Shown: in pieces, positions 3,655 to 34,943 of the stretch
Position numbering within the stretch: the stretch's first letter is position 1
Layout of the letters: every line of letters begins with the position of its first letter
Source: Lentilactobacillus kribbianus
GTDB lineage: Bacteria > Bacillota > Bacilli > Lactobacillales > Lactobacillaceae
Reading direction: 5' to 3'
Assembly: GCF_013184075.1 (NCBI RefSeq)
Contig: NZ_JABEQQ010000001.1
Span: 434,001-498,000 of the forward strand
DNA length: 64,000 nucleotides
Notes under the pieces: generated by a model
The model's input: only the letters and a program-made list of their open reading frames with translations
The model's database searches: none
What the model was told of the DNA's origin: nothing
Made by a program: the position numbers and the translations under genes

Positions 3655-3930
3655 AATTACTGAAAACCGATAAAGCGGACAAGTACCTTTGATGAATTTG
3701 TTAGCGAGCTAAGGATAGTGAAAGCTTAGTGAAATAGTCATTGGAAAATAACACCCCTTTTGGTTGCAATCTGAACGAATTATTTTTAGTAGGATTAGCC
3801 GTTACCGCAACGTTACCAGCGGAGCGTATTTGATACGTTAATTGAGTTGGTTTGCATTAAGCAAGCAATTTGGGTGGTACCGCGGAAAGACCTTTCGTCC
3901 CTAGTTTTATGGGATTAAGGTCTTTTTTAT
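3655..3930 (+). promoter_or_regulatory. T-box leader of asnS (asparagine specifier)
   Basis: The 5' leader of asnS carries the T-box core GGTGGTACCGCGG at 3873-3885, which binds the uncharged tRNA acceptor end. It is followed by the terminator stem from AAAGACC to GGTCTTTTTT at 3886-3930. A stem I region with an AGCGAGC element lies near 3711. An AAC triplet at 3750-3752 is the likely specifier, matching asparagine and the gene downstream. Uncharged tRNA-Asn should stabilise the antiterminator and raise asnS expression. Confidence 0.9.
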
Positions 3931-9821: not shown

Positions 9822-10472
9822 ATGGAAACTAGCAAAGCAATCAAAACCCGGCGCTCAATTCGCGATTTTAAGTCCACCCCCGTCGAAAAAGACGTCTTGG
9901 TAGACATTATTAAAGCAGCACAGCAAGCCCCTTCTCAGGCCAACTCTCAACCATGGCACGTTTATTTAGCTACAGGAGATACCTTAACAGAATACAAACG
10001 GCGTTTTCAACAGCTGAGTCAAGCTAATAAGAAAAGTAAACTATTCTTAGAAAAAGCGCAAACCGGTCAATGGTCACCAACTGAACAAATTAAAATGGCC
10101 AAGTGGAATGTGGAACTAGCACAAACTTTAGATGGCATGCAATATATCTACTCCAACAGTCAATACGCCCTCTATAACGCTCCTGCCATTGCCATCTTGA
10201 CTTTACCTAAAAATAGTCCCGCATGGTCCATTTATGATTTAGGCGCTTTTGCCCAAACTTTAATGTTAGCAGCTACCGATCATGGCCTAGCTAGTATTTC
10301 CGCTAGTGAGTTCGTCAAGTATCCAGAATTAGGTTACGGTGTTTTAGATATTTCCAAAAAAGAAGTCGCCGTTATGGGTATTGGATTAGGATATGAAGAT
10401 TCCACTCGCCAAATTAACCAACTACACACTAGTCGGCAACTACTACAAGATACCCTCACTTTTTTCGCCTAA
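9822..10472 (+). CDS. Nitroreductase family protein
   Basis: An FMN-dependent oxidoreductase of 216 residues. It has the N-terminal RRSIRDFKSTPV segment, PSQANSQPWHVYLATG (FMN and substrate contacts) and the C-terminal VMGIGLGYEDSTRQIN segment characteristic of NfnB/NfsB-like nitroreductases. It is a paralogue of the protein at 55664-56311, with which it shares length and motif layout. The physiological substrate (quinones, flavins, nitro compounds) is unknown. It is monocistronic, with a GAGG ribosome site and a terminator behind it. Confidence 0.88.
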   Translation: METSKAIKTRRSIRDFKSTPVEKDVLVDIIKAAQQAPSQANSQPWHVYLATGDTLTEYKRRFQQLSQANKKSKLFLEKAQTGQWSPTEQIKMAKWNVELAQTLDGMQYIYSNSQYALYNAPAIAILTLPKNSPAWSIYDLGAFAQTLMLAATDHGLASISASEFVKYPELGYGVLDISKKEVAVMGIGLGYEDSTRQINQLHTSRQLLQDTLTFFA

Positions 10473-29596: not shown

Positions 29597-29629
29597 AAAA
29601 AAAAAAACATCCGGCACTGGATACTTTTT
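29597..29629 (-). terminator. Terminator of the phnDCEE-nucleotidase operon
   Basis: On the minus strand GTATCC and GGATGT pair across AGTGCC and are followed by a run of 12 or more T. It overlaps the very end of the nucleotidase gene. Confidence 0.8.
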
Positions 29630-31184
29630 AATATTTCACTGTAAAATTTTGGGGTTGTTGAGCCACCACTAAGGGATGTTTTTCTAAATAATCCGTAATT
29701 AACTCTGTCATATCCATATTAACCTCACGCACTACTTTATCCGCTGAAAACATCGGGTAGTCACCGCCACCGTTACCCCGGTACTGATTCATTGTGATCA
29801 ATAAAGTTTGATTAGGGGTCACCGGTTGGCCATGGTATTGTAACTGGATTACTCGCTCGCCCACTGGACGGTTTAAATCAAAAGTGTACTCAATCCCCGA
29901 GTAAAAATCATAATTAAAATGCTGGAACTTGGGTTTTAAAAAAGCTGCTGCTACCACTACTCGATTAGCTTGCAACGCAAAGTAGCTGGCACTCCGTTCT
30001 AATGCTAACTTCAAATCGGCACCACTAATCCGTTCTACTACCAAAGTATTAGGATAAACGTAACTATTTAGCACTTGTCTAATAGTTATCACAGACCCAT
30101 AACCATGCACTTCGTCATTAAAAAGGGCCGTCGCTGCAATATCGGTCTTAGTGGCTGCCATTTGTACTTGATTAATAAATTGTAAGTACGCATGCCCTTC
30201 CAGTCGTGCTTTTAAGGGATCAGTGACAATCATCTGGTCACCCACCACTCGTCCAAGTGGTTGATCCAACCAATGTTGCATATCATTCTCCAATTGTAGG
30301 GTATTGCTCATTAACGTCGGATCCGGAGCTTCAGTTGCCGTTGCCAGTAATTTAGCAGTAGAATTCGTCACTTGGTTATCGGCATTTAATTGAAGTTCAA
30401 TCAACCCCACCATTTGACCACGTTCCCCCGGCTGAGTTACTGGCACTCCGTTAATTAGTTGGGCAATTTGACGATGTTGATGTCCCGTTATCAAAGCATC
30501 AATCCCAGAAACCTCAGTTAAAATGCGAGAACCTTCATTTTCATTAGTTAACGGTTCCGTGGCTAAGCCAGTGTGAGGATCATATTCTAAGCCGCCATGA
30601 TACGAAACCACCACCACATCAGCCATCTTTCGTAACTTTGGTACCCACTTTTTAGCGGTAGCTAGGGCTGATTCAAATTTCAAGCCGGGAAGATGTTCTG
30701 CTCGTTCCCAGCGGGGGACAAAGGCGGTGGTCAGGCCGAGGATCGCGATCTTAACGCCTTGTTGTTCAATAATTTGATAGGGTTGATCCACAATATGTTG
30801 CGCCCTTCCCCCCTTGATATTAGCGCCTAATAAGGGGTAATTTCGCTCTGTTTCAGTGGAACGAAGATAAGCTAAGCCATAATTAAATTCATGATTACCT
30901 AATACTCCCGCATCATAGCCGATGTCAGCTGTAATTTGCGAAAATATACTTTGCTTAGCAACCGGCAGCTTTTTCACTACATAACTAGTTAATGGTGAGC
31001 CTTGAATCCAATCACCATTTTCAATAGCTATTACTATCTCATCAGCCGATGCCGTTTGTTTGTACCGTTTAATAATCCCCGCGGCCTTAAGCATGCCGTA
31101 TTCTGCTACGTTAGTTTTGGTACTGTAATTAGTAGGATATAAATATCCATGGACATCACTAGTAGATAAAATTTTAATTTTCAT
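29628..31184 (-). CDS. Cytoplasmic 5'-nucleotidase / metallophosphatase (UshA-like)
   Basis: A 518-residue two-domain enzyme. The N-terminal calcineurin-like metal site is visible in STSDVHGYLYPTNY, NGDWIQGSPL, LGNHEFNYGL and ITGHQHRQ. The C-terminal 5'-nucleotidase domain follows, with LNSYVYPNTLVVERISGADL and NQYRGNGGGDYP for base recognition. Relatives hydrolyse 5'-, 3'- or 2',3'-cyclic nucleotides. Unlike UshA it starts directly at MKIKILSTSDVHG without a signal peptide, so it should act inside the cell. It is the fifth gene of the operon, one base after phnE2, which argues that it processes what the transporter imports. Confidence 0.9.
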   Translation of the reverse strand: MKIKILSTSDVHGYLYPTNYSTKTNVAEYGMLKAAGIIKRYKQTASADEIVIAIENGDWIQGSPLTSYVVKKLPVAKQSIFSQITADIGYDAGVLGNHEFNYGLAYLRSTETERNYPLLGANIKGGRAQHIVDQPYQIIEQQGVKIAILGLTTAFVPRWERAEHLPGLKFESALATAKKWVPKLRKMADVVVVSYHGGLEYDPHTGLATEPLTNENEGSRILTEVSGIDALITGHQHRQIAQLINGVPVTQPGERGQMVGLIELQLNADNQVTNSTAKLLATATEAPDPTLMSNTLQLENDMQHWLDQPLGRVVGDQMIVTDPLKARLEGHAYLQFINQVQMAATKTDIAATALFNDEVHGYGSVITIRQVLNSYVYPNTLVVERISGADLKLALERSASYFALQANRVVVAAAFLKPKFQHFNYDFYSGIEYTFDLNRPVGERVIQLQYHGQPVTPNQTLLITMNQYRGNGGGDYPMFSADKVVREVNMDMTELITDYLEKHPLVVAQQPQNFTVKY

Positions 31185-31185
31185 T

Positions 31186-31995
31186 TTAAACTAACTTCTT
31201 TCGTAACCAACCCGATAGACTATCAATGGCTAACACCATGATAATAATTCCCAACAAAATAATTCCGACCCGCGGCCAATTTCTAGTCTGAATGGCAAAC
31301 AGCATCGGCGTACCAATGCCTCCCGCCCCAACCATTCCCAGAATAGTAGCGGAACGAACGGCAATTTCAAACCGATACAATGTATAAGAAATGAATTCGG
31401 GTAAAATAGTCGGTAACGTTGCTAAAGCAAAAACTTGCGTTGCATTACCTCCTACACTTACAATAGCCTCTTCAGCGCCGTCATCCATATTTTCAATAGC
31501 TTCACTAAATAGTTTTCCTAACATTCCCACTGAATGAACTCCCACAGCTAGTACTCCCGCATACGAACCGGGCCCAACTGCTTTAATAAACATGATCGCC
31601 AATACAATTTCGGGAAATGTTCGGATTAACGTTAAGACAAATTTGCCACTGGTCGAACGGACGTGCCATTTTTCACTTGGACTTTGAGCAGCCCAAAAGG
31701 CGAACGGAACACTAATAACCGCTGAAATAATAGTTCCCAAAAAGGCAATTGCTAGGGTTTGGACAATTAAAGATACTAAATCTTCGCCACTACCATTATA
31801 GACATAGGCCCAATCGGGATGAAAAATACCTGAAATAATAGATTTAGATACTGAACTAGCCGATGCCTGAATGCCACTTAGCTTTAGTCCTTGCAGCGAC
31901 CAAACATAAATAATCAAGACAATCAAAGCCCAAAAGAGCCAACCGTAACGGTCATAGTAACTTTTTTTAATTGTTAATTCCGGTGATTTTTCCAT
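31186..31995 (-). CDS. phnE: ABC transporter permease, PhnE family (second copy)
   Basis: A 269-residue permease with about six hydrophobic segments and the cytoplasmic EAA-like loop AIENMDDGAEEAIVSVGGNATQVF that docks on the ATPase. It pairs with the preceding permease as a heterodimer. Start and stop codons overlap (TAATG) with the upstream gene, implying translational coupling. By homology it belongs to the phosphonate/phosphite-type importers, but the operon's control elements suggest a nucleotide-related substrate (inference). Confidence 0.92.
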   Translation of the reverse strand: MEKSPELTIKKSYYDRYGWLFWALIVLIIYVWSLQGLKLSGIQASASSVSKSIISGIFHPDWAYVYNGSGEDLVSLIVQTLAIAFLGTIISAVISVPFAFWAAQSPSEKWHVRSTSGKFVLTLIRTFPEIVLAIMFIKAVGPGSYAGVLAVGVHSVGMLGKLFSEAIENMDDGAEEAIVSVGGNATQVFALATLPTILPEFISYTLYRFEIAVRSATILGMVGAGGIGTPMLFAIQTRNWPRVGIILLGIIIMVLAIDSLSGWLRKKLV

Positions 31996-32792
31996 TACAT
32001 TAATCGCTCCCTCAAGTAATTACTAATGATATTAATGATAAAGACTACCACTAAGGTCATAATGATAATTACTGCTGTTTGACTATAGTTAAATTCATTT
32101 AATGAGCGCTGTAAGTACACCCCAATTCCGCCGGCACCCAAATATCCTAGAACCGTGGAAGCTCGGACATTAATTTCTAAAGTATACAAAAAATAACTAA
32201 TAAATTGGTTAAGGACCTGCGGGACAACCGCGAAATGAATGATTTGTAATTTACGTGCCCCCACAGATTTCATAGCCTCGATAGGGCCTTCATCAATGGT
32301 TTCAATAACTTCATAAAATAATTTAGAAACCATCCCAAACGAAAAGATAGCCAAGGTCACCACCCCGGCGGTAGCGCCAATACCAAATACCGCGACAAAA
32401 ATGGCGGCTAATAACAAGTCGGGTAAGGTTCGGACCAAATCCAACCCAAACCGCACCAGCCCCCGGATCCATGAATTTTGCACAATATTGCTAGCAGCTA
32501 AAAATGCCAATGGGATTGCAAAGCAGGTACCAATTGTAGTCCCAATAATGGCCATTTGGATCGTTTCTAAGATAGGTTGCCCAATAATAGTAATGTAAGC
32601 CCAATCGGGATGGGCCATTCGGACTAACAAATTGGTGAACTGATCTAAATTACCCCAAAACATGGCCAGATCCACCCCGGCTACTTGTGCCGATAAAATA
32701 ATTAATAGCCCGGTAATTATTACTAGACTAATAGTTTTAAGATGATACTTTTGCCACCAAGATTGTCGTGGCAACCGCTTCATTACATCCAT
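31995..32792 (-). CDS. phnE: ABC transporter permease, PhnE family (first copy)
   Basis: A 265-residue permease with the same fold as its downstream partner. The loop VIETIDEGPIEAMKSVGARKLQII is the ATPase contact. Hydrophobic segments are spread over the whole length. It starts nine bases after phnC behind AGGAGG. The two permeases are related but clearly different, as usual for PhnE1/PhnE2 pairs in lactobacilli. Confidence 0.92.
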   Translation of the reverse strand: MDVMKRLPRQSWWQKYHLKTISLVIITGLLIILSAQVAGVDLAMFWGNLDQFTNLLVRMAHPDWAYITIIGQPILETIQMAIIGTTIGTCFAIPLAFLAASNIVQNSWIRGLVRFGLDLVRTLPDLLLAAIFVAVFGIGATAGVVTLAIFSFGMVSKLFYEVIETIDEGPIEAMKSVGARKLQIIHFAVVPQVLNQFISYFLYTLEINVRASTVLGYLGAGGIGVYLQRSLNEFNYSQTAVIIIMTLVVVFIINIISNYLRERLM

Positions 32793-32801
32793 GCTGTCCT
32801 C

Positions 32802-33554
32802 CTACATTGGCTGATAAATTTGATTTAGATCCTCTTCCGTTACCTGATCAATGGGTTCGTCATATACTAATTGACCAGCTCTCATTCCCACAATCCGATC
32901 CGCATATTTCAGAGCTAACGGTACTGAATGTAGATTAACAATCACTGTAATGCCATCTTCTTGATTTAATTTTTGCAAATCATTCATAACCGCTGTCGTC
33001 GTTAACGGATCCAGCGACGCAATCGGTTCGTCAGCTAAAATAATCTTGGGATCTTGCATCAAGGTACGAGCAATTGCTACTCGTTGTTGCTGACCGCCCG
33101 ACAATTGATCAGCACGCATATAAATTTTTTCTAACAAGTTAACTCGATCCAACGCTTGGGCGGCTTTTCGCTTGTCGGCTTTAGAATAAAGACCTAAGAT
33201 GCTTTTCCAGGTAGGATAATAACTAATTTTGCCCGATAAAACGTTATGTTCCACGCTAGAGCGCTTAACCAAGTTAAAATTTTGAAAAATCATCCCGACT
33301 TTGCGCCGCAACTCCCTTAATGCGGTTCCTTTCAGCGTGGCCACTTCAACCCCATCCACCAACACCTTACCGGAACTGGGGCGGTGCATTTGATTAATCG
33401 TCCGCATTAAGGTACTCTTGCCAGCTCCTGATAGCCCTACCACCACCAAAAATTCTCCTGGATTAACTTTTAAATTAATCGCTTTTAATCCCACCGTACC
33501 GTTGTCATAAACTTTATTAACATTTTGAAATTCAATAATTGGTTGGGCCTTCAT
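32802..33554 (-). CDS. phnC: ABC transporter ATPase, PhnC family
   Basis: A 250-residue ATP-binding subunit. The Walker A motif is GLSGAGKST, the signature is [15 protein letters not shown] and Walker B is [14 protein letters not shown], with the H-loop in NLHSVPLA. It energises import through the two PhnE-like permeases. The ATG at 33554 follows GGAGG; the frame extends to 33599 without a ribosome site. It lies between the binding protein gene and the permease genes. Confidence 0.93.
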
Positions 33555-33645
33555 CTGGTATATCCTCCAAAAAAATGGCTGGAAATACTCAATAATCATA
33601 TTTCGGCAGCCATTTCTATTATTAATTTTTACGTTCTCAATTTAA

Positions 33646-34584
33646 TTAATTATCTAATTTCGCAGCTTCTTTGTCGTATTTACGAATAATATCAAAGTTA
33701 CTATCTTTGGAATCAACATATCCTTCGTGACTATAGACACTCGAGATGATTTGGTGACCTTTCTTGGTTTTAGCAATATCTTTAAAGGCTTGCGAAATTT
33801 TCTTTTGCCATTTTGCACTCATATCGCCTCTAACCGTGATGGTATCATTAGGAATTTTATCAGTAGTATAAATCGGTACTACTTTTTGCATTACGTCCGG
33901 TTCATCTTTTTGCACTAACTTGCGTGCCCCTTGGAAAACAAAGGCGGCATCGGTATTTTTGTTATATACCGACAAGACCCCTTGATCGTGGCCTTTTACT
34001 TGTACCGTTTTAATCTTATCTTTGTTGATGTTAACGCCGTGATTAAGCATTTCTACCGCCGGATAAATCCAGCCAGCAGTGGAGGTAGTATCTTGCGTAG
34101 CAATAGTTTTATTCTTTAAATCCTTAAGATTTTTAATCCCGCTATCTTTGCGAACCAAGATTTGCGAACGATAATAGTCAACTAATTGTTTAGTGGCTTG
34201 GTCATTGGGCTCCTTAACTCCATACCGTTGTGCTTGTAATAAGACCTTAGCGTTATATTGTTTATGGGCCAAAACATAAGCATCTGGTGGCAAATAACCC
34301 ACATCGACTTTCTTAGATCCCATTGCTTCCACAATGGTATTGTAGTCAGTGGAAACAGCGACTTTTACCGGAATCCCCAATTCCTTTTTCAATAGTCCTT
34401 CTAGGGGTTTAGCCTTAGCCTCAATTGTGCCCGCATTAGACGATGGCACAAACTCAACGGTTAACTTCTTAGGAGTGTAGTTGGTACTCTTTTGAGCCGT
34501 TTTACCACAGCCGACAAGGCCAACGGACAATAAAAGCAACGAAGCCGCAACAATTCCGTATTTCACATGGTGGTTAGATATCAT
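33646..34584 (-). CDS. phnD: ABC transporter substrate-binding lipoprotein, PhnD family
   Basis: A 312-residue exported lipoprotein. The lipobox is LSVGLVGC, with Cys at about residue 26 anchoring it to the outer face of the membrane. The mature domain begins KLTVEFVPSSNAGTIEAKAKPLEGLL and has VGYLPPDAYVLA and TQDTTSTAGWIYPAVEML, the PhnD/PtxB-like ligand pocket with its Ser-Thr-Ser anion-binding turn. The family binds phosphonates or phosphite, but the PyrR and PurBox-like elements upstream suggest a nucleotide or nucleoside phosphate. The ATG at 34584 follows GGAGGG. Confidence 0.9.
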   Translation of the reverse strand: MISNHHVKYGIVAASLLLLSVGLVGCGKTAQKSTNYTPKKLTVEFVPSSNAGTIEAKAKPLEGLLKKELGIPVKVAVSTDYNTIVEAMGSKKVDVGYLPPDAYVLAHKQYNAKVLLQAQRYGVKEPNDQATKQLVDYYRSQILVRKDSGIKNLKDLKNKTIATQDTTSTAGWIYPAVEMLNHGVNINKDKIKTVQVKGHDQGVLSVYNKNTDAAFVFQGARKLVQKDEPDVMQKVVPIYTTDKIPNDTITVRGDMSAKWQKKISQAFKDIAKTKKGHQIISSVYSHEGYVDSKDSNFDIIRKYDKEAAKLDN

Positions 34585-34630
34585 CAAATGGTCCCTCCAA
34601 AAATATATTATCGTTCCTGGTTCATGAAAT

Positions 34631-34660
34631 ATCTTAGTCCATACGAACGAACTTAGTCAA
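34631..34660 (-). promoter_or_regulatory. Candidate promoter of the phnDCEE operon
   Basis: On the minus strand TTGACT (34660-34655) is followed after 18 bases by TAAGAT (34636-34631), about 50 bases upstream of the phnD start. The spacer holds one of the CGAAC boxes, so a repressor there would block this promoter. Confidence 0.45.
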
Positions 34661-34687
34661 TAATAATTTAATTTAAGTTCGTGTTTT
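34641..34687. promoter_or_regulatory. PurBox-like pair of CGAAC elements
   Basis: On the minus strand AAAACACGAACTTAA (34687-34673) is followed 16 bases later by the inverted copy CTAAGTTCGTTCGTAT (34656-34641). A third copy, AAACACGAACTAT, lies on the plus strand at 34735-34747. The cores resemble the PurR PurBox (AWWWCCGAACWWT) and the forward-reverse layout is like that of known PurR operators. Assignment to PurR is inference. Confidence 0.45.
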
Positions 34688-34763
34688 ATCGTTTTAAAAG
34701 CTTATATACAGCTTTAAATTATTTTTTAAACAACAAACACGAACTATATTCCTTAACAAGCAC

Positions 34764-34900
34764 GAAAAAAGCCTCTTGTCTGTTCAGACAAAGAGGCTAG
34801 TTTTTAGTTGCGTTGATTTAGAGGTTCCCTAAATAAAGGGAGCACTTTACCGGCAACTTGATAGCCTCACGGGACTAATTTAAAGTTACTTATCGATTTA
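34764..34900 (-). promoter_or_regulatory. PyrR-type attenuator upstream of phnD
   Basis: On the minus strand AGTCCCGTGAGGCT (34876-34863) matches the PyrR-binding loop consensus ARUCCNGNGAGGYU. Its GAGGCTA can pair with TAGCCTC of the following terminator, giving the antiterminator. The terminator itself is AGCCTCTTTGTCTG with CAGACAAGAGGCT and TTTTTTC at 34799-34765. This is the standard PyrR layout: UMP/UTP-bound PyrR holds the anti-antiterminator and transcription stops. The next gene on this strand is phnD, about 180 bases on; no pyr biosynthesis gene is present. Confidence 0.82.
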
Positions 34901-34943
34901 ATGGGTTAATTTATCCTAGCATGTTAATCCTGATTTGACTAGC

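Follow-up and report, generated by a model that had tools for sequence, protein, structure and literature searches.

In a 64-kb window of the Lentilactobacillus kribbianus genome (1.51 Mb, 99.18% complete), an operon labelled as a phosphonate ATP-binding cassette (ABC) transporter, phnD-phnC-phnE1-phnE2-nucleotidase, is preceded by a PyrR-dependent attenuator and by conserved purine-type promoter boxes. We consider it reasonably probable that the operon encodes an importer of intact nucleoside phosphates for internal dephosphorylation, under a two-promoter, OR-like control. The computed evidence comprises the gene layout, the RF00515 attenuator, the conserved promoter boxes, the pyrR and purR genes, the searches in which pyrB, purF and PhnJ were not found, and the conservation of operon partners.

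From this evidence we infer the action of PyrR and PurR at the phn operon, repression by PurR, the OR logic and, most of all, the identity of the ligand. PhnD would capture a nucleotide by its phosphate, be it a 5'-nucleoside monophosphate (5'-NMP), a 3'-NMP or a 2',3'-cyclic NMP. PhnC and the two PhnE permeases would import the captured nucleotide with ATP, and the internal nucleotidase would strip the phosphate, leaving a nucleoside to enter salvage. In the clade of Lentilactobacillus senioris, the closest named relative found for the window genome (PhnD identity 90%), transcripts from a distal promoter (P1) would pass the PyrR attenuator and terminate when uridine monophosphate is plentiful. 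A proximal promoter (P2), downstream of the attenuator terminator and with a PurR-type operator between its -35 and -10 elements, would fire when purines are short. The two promoters would form an OR-like circuit in this clade, with shortage of either nucleotide class inducing the operon.

Leader, promoters and gene layout

The first-pass annotation of the window, made from the letters alone, had placed a PyrR-binding loop, a matching antiterminator arm and a terminator upstream of phnD, and these were borne out by a covariance-model match to RF00515 above its gathering threshold (Table 1). The binding loop (34852-34890) was also recovered (40.3 bits, E 1.8e-4) by an independent model, R1, for which 25 PyrR leaders on genes other than phnD were taken from the genus and which was searched against 81 phnD loci (80 named loci plus the window; 1.28 Mb). 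The leader folded better than 200/200 shuffles (z -3.2). Its terminator arm holds TAGCCTC (34799-34793), the complement of GAGGCTA (34868-34862), which allows an antiterminator to form. At E up to 0.001, RF00515 matches the window genome twice, at the phn leader and at one other site. The second match stands before a gene with uracil permease as its best model (421.6 bits, below the cut-off of 477) and with a score above the cut-off for the NCS2 family.

Conservation of the leader at phnD orthologues held only in part. A PyrR loop was found by R1 upstream of phnD in 3/81 loci, all in the L. senioris clade (both L. senioris leaders scored 36.3 bits), and was not found at 78 of the 80 named loci, in a set where at least two loci have fewer than 200 upstream bases. 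The window and L. senioris DSM 24302 have an identical binding loop and both keep the terminator, while their middle hairpins have diverged. In L. senioris YQ005 (L004) the 5' arm of the terminator is deleted, leaving it short of seven bases; this loss takes in both terminator and antiterminator arm, and attenuation was therefore probably lost there, making this leader a probable natural broken attenuator. The restricted distribution, the damage in YQ005 and the full RF00515 scores of the two L. senioris leaders (49.8 and 41.8 bits, below the gathering threshold of 54) weigh against our reading of the control region. They would suit a leader left over from loss of the pyr operon, with no working control of phn and with the purine promoter alone mattering; pyrB is missing in all three genomes with a PyrR leader on phnD, and phnD elsewhere does without one. 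We nevertheless regard such a relic as unlikely, given a loop that stayed invariant against a diverged middle hairpin, a terminator present in both the window and DSM 24302, and a window leader that exceeds the gathering threshold and retains its antiterminator pairing.

One extra R1 match with E<1, at L062:3002-3040 (minus strand; 36.7 bits) in Lapidilactobacillus dextrinicus, lies ahead of a different gene near the phn locus and was rejected as not being upstream of phnD. Rfam searches of nine of the 80 named loci for other known RNA elements in the relatives' phnD leaders returned only L21 leaders, located elsewhere.

The putative distal promoter P1 retains TGnTAGGnT in L. senioris. Its match to consensus is weak (8/12), hence its absence from the promoter scan, and this too counts against the two-promoter reading.

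The three CGAAC boxes of the first-pass annotation, two of them as a PurBox-like pair, were recovered, and the last GTTCG lies within the spacer of P2. As a bare consensus P2 is no better than chance (14 promoter-like sites against 15.0 expected), and its support is conservation. A GTTCG inside a TTGnnn/TAnnnT spacer occurred in 34/81 phnD upstream regions, all 34 from Lactobacillaceae (shuffle mean 0.6, maximum 3 in 100 shuffles; nine other words gave 0 to 5). The inverted pair (N22-27) was present in 15/81 regions (shuffle mean 0.04), and 17/81 had two boxes in direct orientation 85-100 bases apart (shuffle mean 0.085); the loci are related, so these counts represent non-independent events. 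In G054 a similar pair, CGAAC-N25-GTTCG, stands in front of purE; G001, G002, G012, G052 and G206 have one to three boxes ahead of purE or purC, and boxes also occur upstream of purR. The position of the box between -35 and -10 suggests that PurR acts as a repressor at P2. As a refinement of the first-pass annotation, the PyrR leader lies upstream of P2, so that transcripts from P2 would bypass the attenuator.

Agreement with purine control was incomplete. Of the three pur-bearing genomes compared, G052 and G206 showed no box ahead of phnD over the stretch that was read and G054 showed a single one, and genome-wide the strict pair was no commoner than its reversed control (4 versus 7). By analogy, repression is also questioned by Lactococcus lactis, in which the available text describes PurR as an activator (PMC3547956).

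The proposed gene order, with tight packing of the last four genes, was confirmed, the gaps from phnC through phnE1 and phnE2 to the nucleotidase being 9, -1 and 1 bases. The 91 bases between phnD and phnC contain a hairpin and then a T-run (33569-33615, minus strand), whose loop exceeds the limit of the terminator scan; this hairpin possibly sets more binding protein than transporter. PhnD is a predicted lipoprotein with a lipobox-like Cys26 (read by eye), and its structure model has a predicted local distance difference test score (pLDDT) of 86.7.

Table 1 Features of the phn operon and its upstream region, in window coordinates.
Feature	Position	Strand	Evidence
Putative distal promoter P1, TAGTCA-N17-TAGGAT, extended -10 (TGC)	34913..34941	-	Inference
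PyrR-dependent attenuator (RF00515)	34763..34890	-	55.6 bits, gathering threshold 54; E 6.4e-5 (whole-window scan)
Attenuator terminator; 5' arm able to pair with PyrR loop (antiterminator)	34765..34798	-	Aligned with RF00515
Upstream GTTCG box	34740..34744	-	Shared with both L. senioris loci
PurBox-like inverted pair, CGAAC-N24-GTTCG	34648..34681	-	CGAAC 34681-34677, GTTCG 34652-34648; spans 34 bases
Proximal promoter P2, TTGACT-N18-TAAGAT, GTTCG in spacer	34631..34660	-	TTGACT 34660-34655, TAAGAT 34636-34631
phnD, substrate-binding protein	33646..34584	-	PF12974 7.8e-57; TIGR01098 above cut-off; TIGR03431 PhnD below cut-off
phnC, ABC ATPase	32802..33554	-	TIGR02315 347.5 bits, cut-off 266.1
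phnE1, permease	31995..32792	-	TIGR01097 287.5 bits, cut-off 216.7
phnE2, permease	31186..31995	-	TIGR01097 256 bits, cut-off 216.7
Nucleotidase, CpdB/UshA superfamily metallophosphatase, 518 residues	29628..31184	-	PF02872 and PF00149 above cut-off

Elsewhere in the window, a T-box leader (3661-3905, plus strand; 100.1 bits) precedes an open reading frame, which we take to encode an asparaginyl-tRNA synthetase.

Nucleotide metabolism and distribution of the operon

Both regulators are encoded in the window genome, which these protein searches covered: PyrR (NF003548, 265.9 bits, cut-off 218) and a Bacillus-type PurR (TIGR01743, 351 bits, cut-off 258.7). The biosynthetic genes were compared across 24 Lentilactobacillus genomes, including the window genome (G000) and two of L. 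senioris (G018 and G019). No PF02729 match, and hence no pyrB, was found in the window genome. Across the genus set, matches in the pyrB score class were missing in G000, G011, G018, G019 and G023 and split in G010; these calls rest on score class, with the four matches of G018 and G019 checked individually. Those four were rejected as ornithine or putrescine carbamoyltransferases, the aspartate model scoring far under its cut-off. No purF above cut-off was present in G000, G010, G011, G018, G019 or G023. Judged from gene content, the host bacterium seems to have no purine or pyrimidine synthesis of its own. The window genome retains pyrR, carA, a carB-like gene, pyrF, a pyrE-like gene and pyrD. 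Of the 840 residues of the carB-like gene (L144:11374-13896), only the first 632 align with the large-subunit model, at a score below the cut-off.

A close phnD orthologue (91-100%) was confined to G000, G018 and G019, each with an RF00515 match upstream of phnD; six more genus genomes gave weaker partial matches. Behind the other PyrR leaders of L. senioris lies either a gene of the uracil-permease type or a nucleoside deoxyribosyltransferase gene with an NCS1-type permease after it, as judged from one scanned example of each kind (the deoxyribosyltransferase/permease pair in one genome). With uracil permease, deoxyribosyltransferase/NCS1 and phn as the genes so led, all PyrR leaders found (E up to 0.001) in the clade head salvage-type genes. 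The uracil-permease-type gene of DSM 24302 (L149, downstream of 10057-10173, minus strand) is read in two frames (208 + 234 residues) and that of YQ005 in one.

We then considered 201 Lactobacillaceae genomes, using E up to 1e-60 for phnD and E up to 1e-100 for a nucleotidase within 9 kb. phnD occurred in 70/201 genomes, with the nucleotidase within this distance in 40, across 15 genera. Absence of purF was more frequent among phnD carriers (42/70) than among the other genomes (34/131; Fisher P = 3.5e-6, kinship ignored). In the fetched flanks of the 80 named phnD loci, a nucleotidase match was present in 56. Where partners differed, they included an inosine-uridine nucleoside hydrolase directly after phnE2, replacing the nucleotidase (L059 and L061, Furfurilactobacillus-type), and a diacylglycerol-kinase-type gene in the nucleotidase's place (Enterococcus L063). 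The Staphylococcus schweitzeri locus (L075) has its nucleotidase on the opposite strand, separated from phnD by one gene, and a PF01676 gene, presumably deoB-like (phosphopentomutase-like), and a DeoC gene lie beyond phnE2.

Other observations concern phnD copies and relatives. Ligilactobacillus hayakitensis (L046) has three tandem phnD before phnC, and its phnE2 was matched in two overlapping pieces. A plasmid search found close phnD copies on a few plasmids, with no bearing on function; one phnD, 79% identical, lies on a 17.5-kb Lactiplantibacillus plantarum plasmid (NZ_CP017411.1:7681-8550), and relatives of ~60% identity occur on Lactobacillus crispatus and Staphylococcus epidermidis plasmids. 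Distant Lentilactobacillus PhnD paralogues (30-33%) were not counted as the same system, as two of those read (L114 and L116) adjoin a gene that we take to be pdxS-like. These two may perhaps serve a vitamin B6 phosphate transporter.

Nucleotidase, binding pocket and substrate

The nucleotidase had been described as lacking a signal peptide, which we could confirm from its metallophosphatase DVHG motif at residue 10, no signal-peptide program lying behind this reading. With a catalytic motif so near the protein start there is no room for a signal peptide, and the enzyme is most likely cytoplasmic. It matched 14 NCBIfam models, each below its cut-off, the best being the CpdB-type PRK09420 (219.3 bits, cut-off 486), with UshA at 118 bits. 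Its nearest solved structures are 3qfk (uncharacterised) and 4q7f. Given the higher CpdB-like score, 3'- or 2',3'-cyclic nucleotides released by RNA breakdown are just as plausible substrates as 5'-nucleotides.

The phosphonate label itself has support. PhnC and both PhnE pass their phosphonate equivalog cut-offs, and the closest folds to PhnD are PtxB, ArrX, HtxB and PhnD. An importer of phosphonate, phosphite or phosphate, under purine control since phosphate demand tracks nucleotide synthesis, would be consistent with this, and marine PhnD1 is termed a likely inorganic phosphate transporter in the title of PMC10284923. We find such an importer improbable, however. PhnD fails the phosphonate equivalog TIGR03431 (159.9 bits, cut-off 261.1). 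By-eye mapping of the pocket places Asp247, invariant in 36 rows, at the position of the barrier tyrosine of phosphite and methylphosphonate binders (5lv1 Tyr208; barrier role as stated in the accessible text of PMC12718374). Only one of the two residues of the 2-aminoethylphosphonate pair in E. coli PhnD (Glu177/Asp205) is kept, as Gly219/Asp247. The operon's partners are a nucleotidase or a nucleoside hydrolase, and a phosphorus importer would have no obvious use for PyrR control. As the first-pass annotation had held for C-P lyase, PhnJ was absent from 24/24 genus genomes (the E. coli control was found), which argues against phosphonate use; the search was aimed at PhnJ and at no other phosphonate-degrading genes.

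A general importer of organic phosphates, such as sugar phosphates and glycerol phosphates, with nucleotides as one among several substrates, is likewise quite unlikely in our view. The nucleotidase superfamily is broad, and GpxB, a PhnD-fold member of this protein family, accepts both G1P and G3P according to the available part of PMC12718374; the regulatory signals and the identified partners, on the other hand, belong to nucleotide metabolism. GpxB with G1P also serves the nucleotide reading as a PhnD-fold precedent for organophosphate binding, as does XAC2383, a PhnD-fold structure with ATP as far as its PDB title states.

Returning to nucleotide import, the missing pyrB and purF, the nucleoside hydrolase partner, the deo-type neighbours and the pocket residues favour a candidate nucleotide-type substrate. 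The first-pass proposal of nucleotide import thus gains partial support from the regulatory signals, layout, partners and pocket, its substrate being a prediction and its PyrR component not being found at 78/80 named loci. Several results pull the other way. G011 and G023, also without a pyrB-class match, have no phnD orthologue. purF is kept in 28/70 phnD carriers, and its association with the full operon is weaker (missing in 23/40 versus 53/161, P = 0.006, kinship ignored). The fetched flanks of 24/80 loci gave no nucleotidase match, although some of these flanks are short and two carry the nucleoside hydrolase. PhnD keeps, at Asp247, the aspartate found at position 205 in E. coli PhnD. The window genome also has a second nucleotidase paralogue (46% identical), which lies apart from the phn operon at G000:C1:706001-707548.

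Relation to known systems

Bacteria usually strip phosphate from nucleotides outside the cell and then take the nucleosides in. For Lactobacillus gasseri PA-3, incorporation of inosine monophosphate (IMP) was described in 2017, a surface transporter being named among the possible routes; the accessible text calls such uptake in lactic acid bacteria so far unreported (PMC5374387). The phn operon offers a concrete, testable candidate for whole-nucleotide uptake. More tentatively, and as a possibility that we would not yet put at even odds, a widespread Gram-positive importer of intact purine and pyrimidine nucleotides may be hidden as a "phosphonate transporter", with a PyrR/PurR OR gate in one auxotrophic clade, and it could be the missing transporter that accounts for the reported uptake of IMP and adenosine monophosphate by lactobacilli. 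Other genomes, too, have these genes annotated for phosphonate uptake, and a demonstrated ligand would give a large family a new label. The two promoters, if the design is true, would be a compact natural circuit sensing both nucleotide classes.

A literature search, mostly without subscription papers, returned no report of a PyrR attenuator on a phn operon, of coupling to pyrB loss or of a nucleotide substrate. Two leads were set aside: a riboswitch link from a text match, which in the accessible text concerns phn_DUF6, a different transporter, and the Streptococcus suis nucleotide ABC transporter (PMC12707516), a three-gene purine-uptake operon with no 'phosphonate' in the text available.

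Among related operons, one carries cpdC, a name we take to denote a cyclic-nucleotide phosphodiesterase-type enzyme. This is phnB-phnC-llmg_0315-cpdC of L. lactis, which an expression-based network linked to the purine gene cluster (PMC3547956). It resembles the operon described here in its Phn-type ABC genes, cpdC and purine link, and differs in that the available text mentions neither a PyrR leader nor an assigned substrate. The purine link of this L. lactis phn-cpdC operon is thus already published, and, as far as the accessible literature goes, the PyrR leader on a phn operon is apparently new. GpxB (PhnT family, PMC12718374) is, from the part available, similarly a PhnD-fold binder of an organophosphate rather than a phosphonate and lacks the barrier aromatic; it comes from marine bacteria, has an Arg223/Thr247 pair and shares 18% identity with the window PhnD over the fold. 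The nucleotidase shares the Metallophos and 5_nucleotid_C domains with CpdB, UshA and YfkN, and, unlike periplasmic CpdB and UshA, has no room for an export signal. Finally, the leader resembles the RF00515 attenuators through which PyrR controls pyr operons and uracil permeases in its loop, antiterminator pairing and terminator and in the presence of pyrR in the genome. It differs in heading a phn operon that has a further promoter, of purine type, downstream of the leader, and in belonging to a clade that lacks pyrB.

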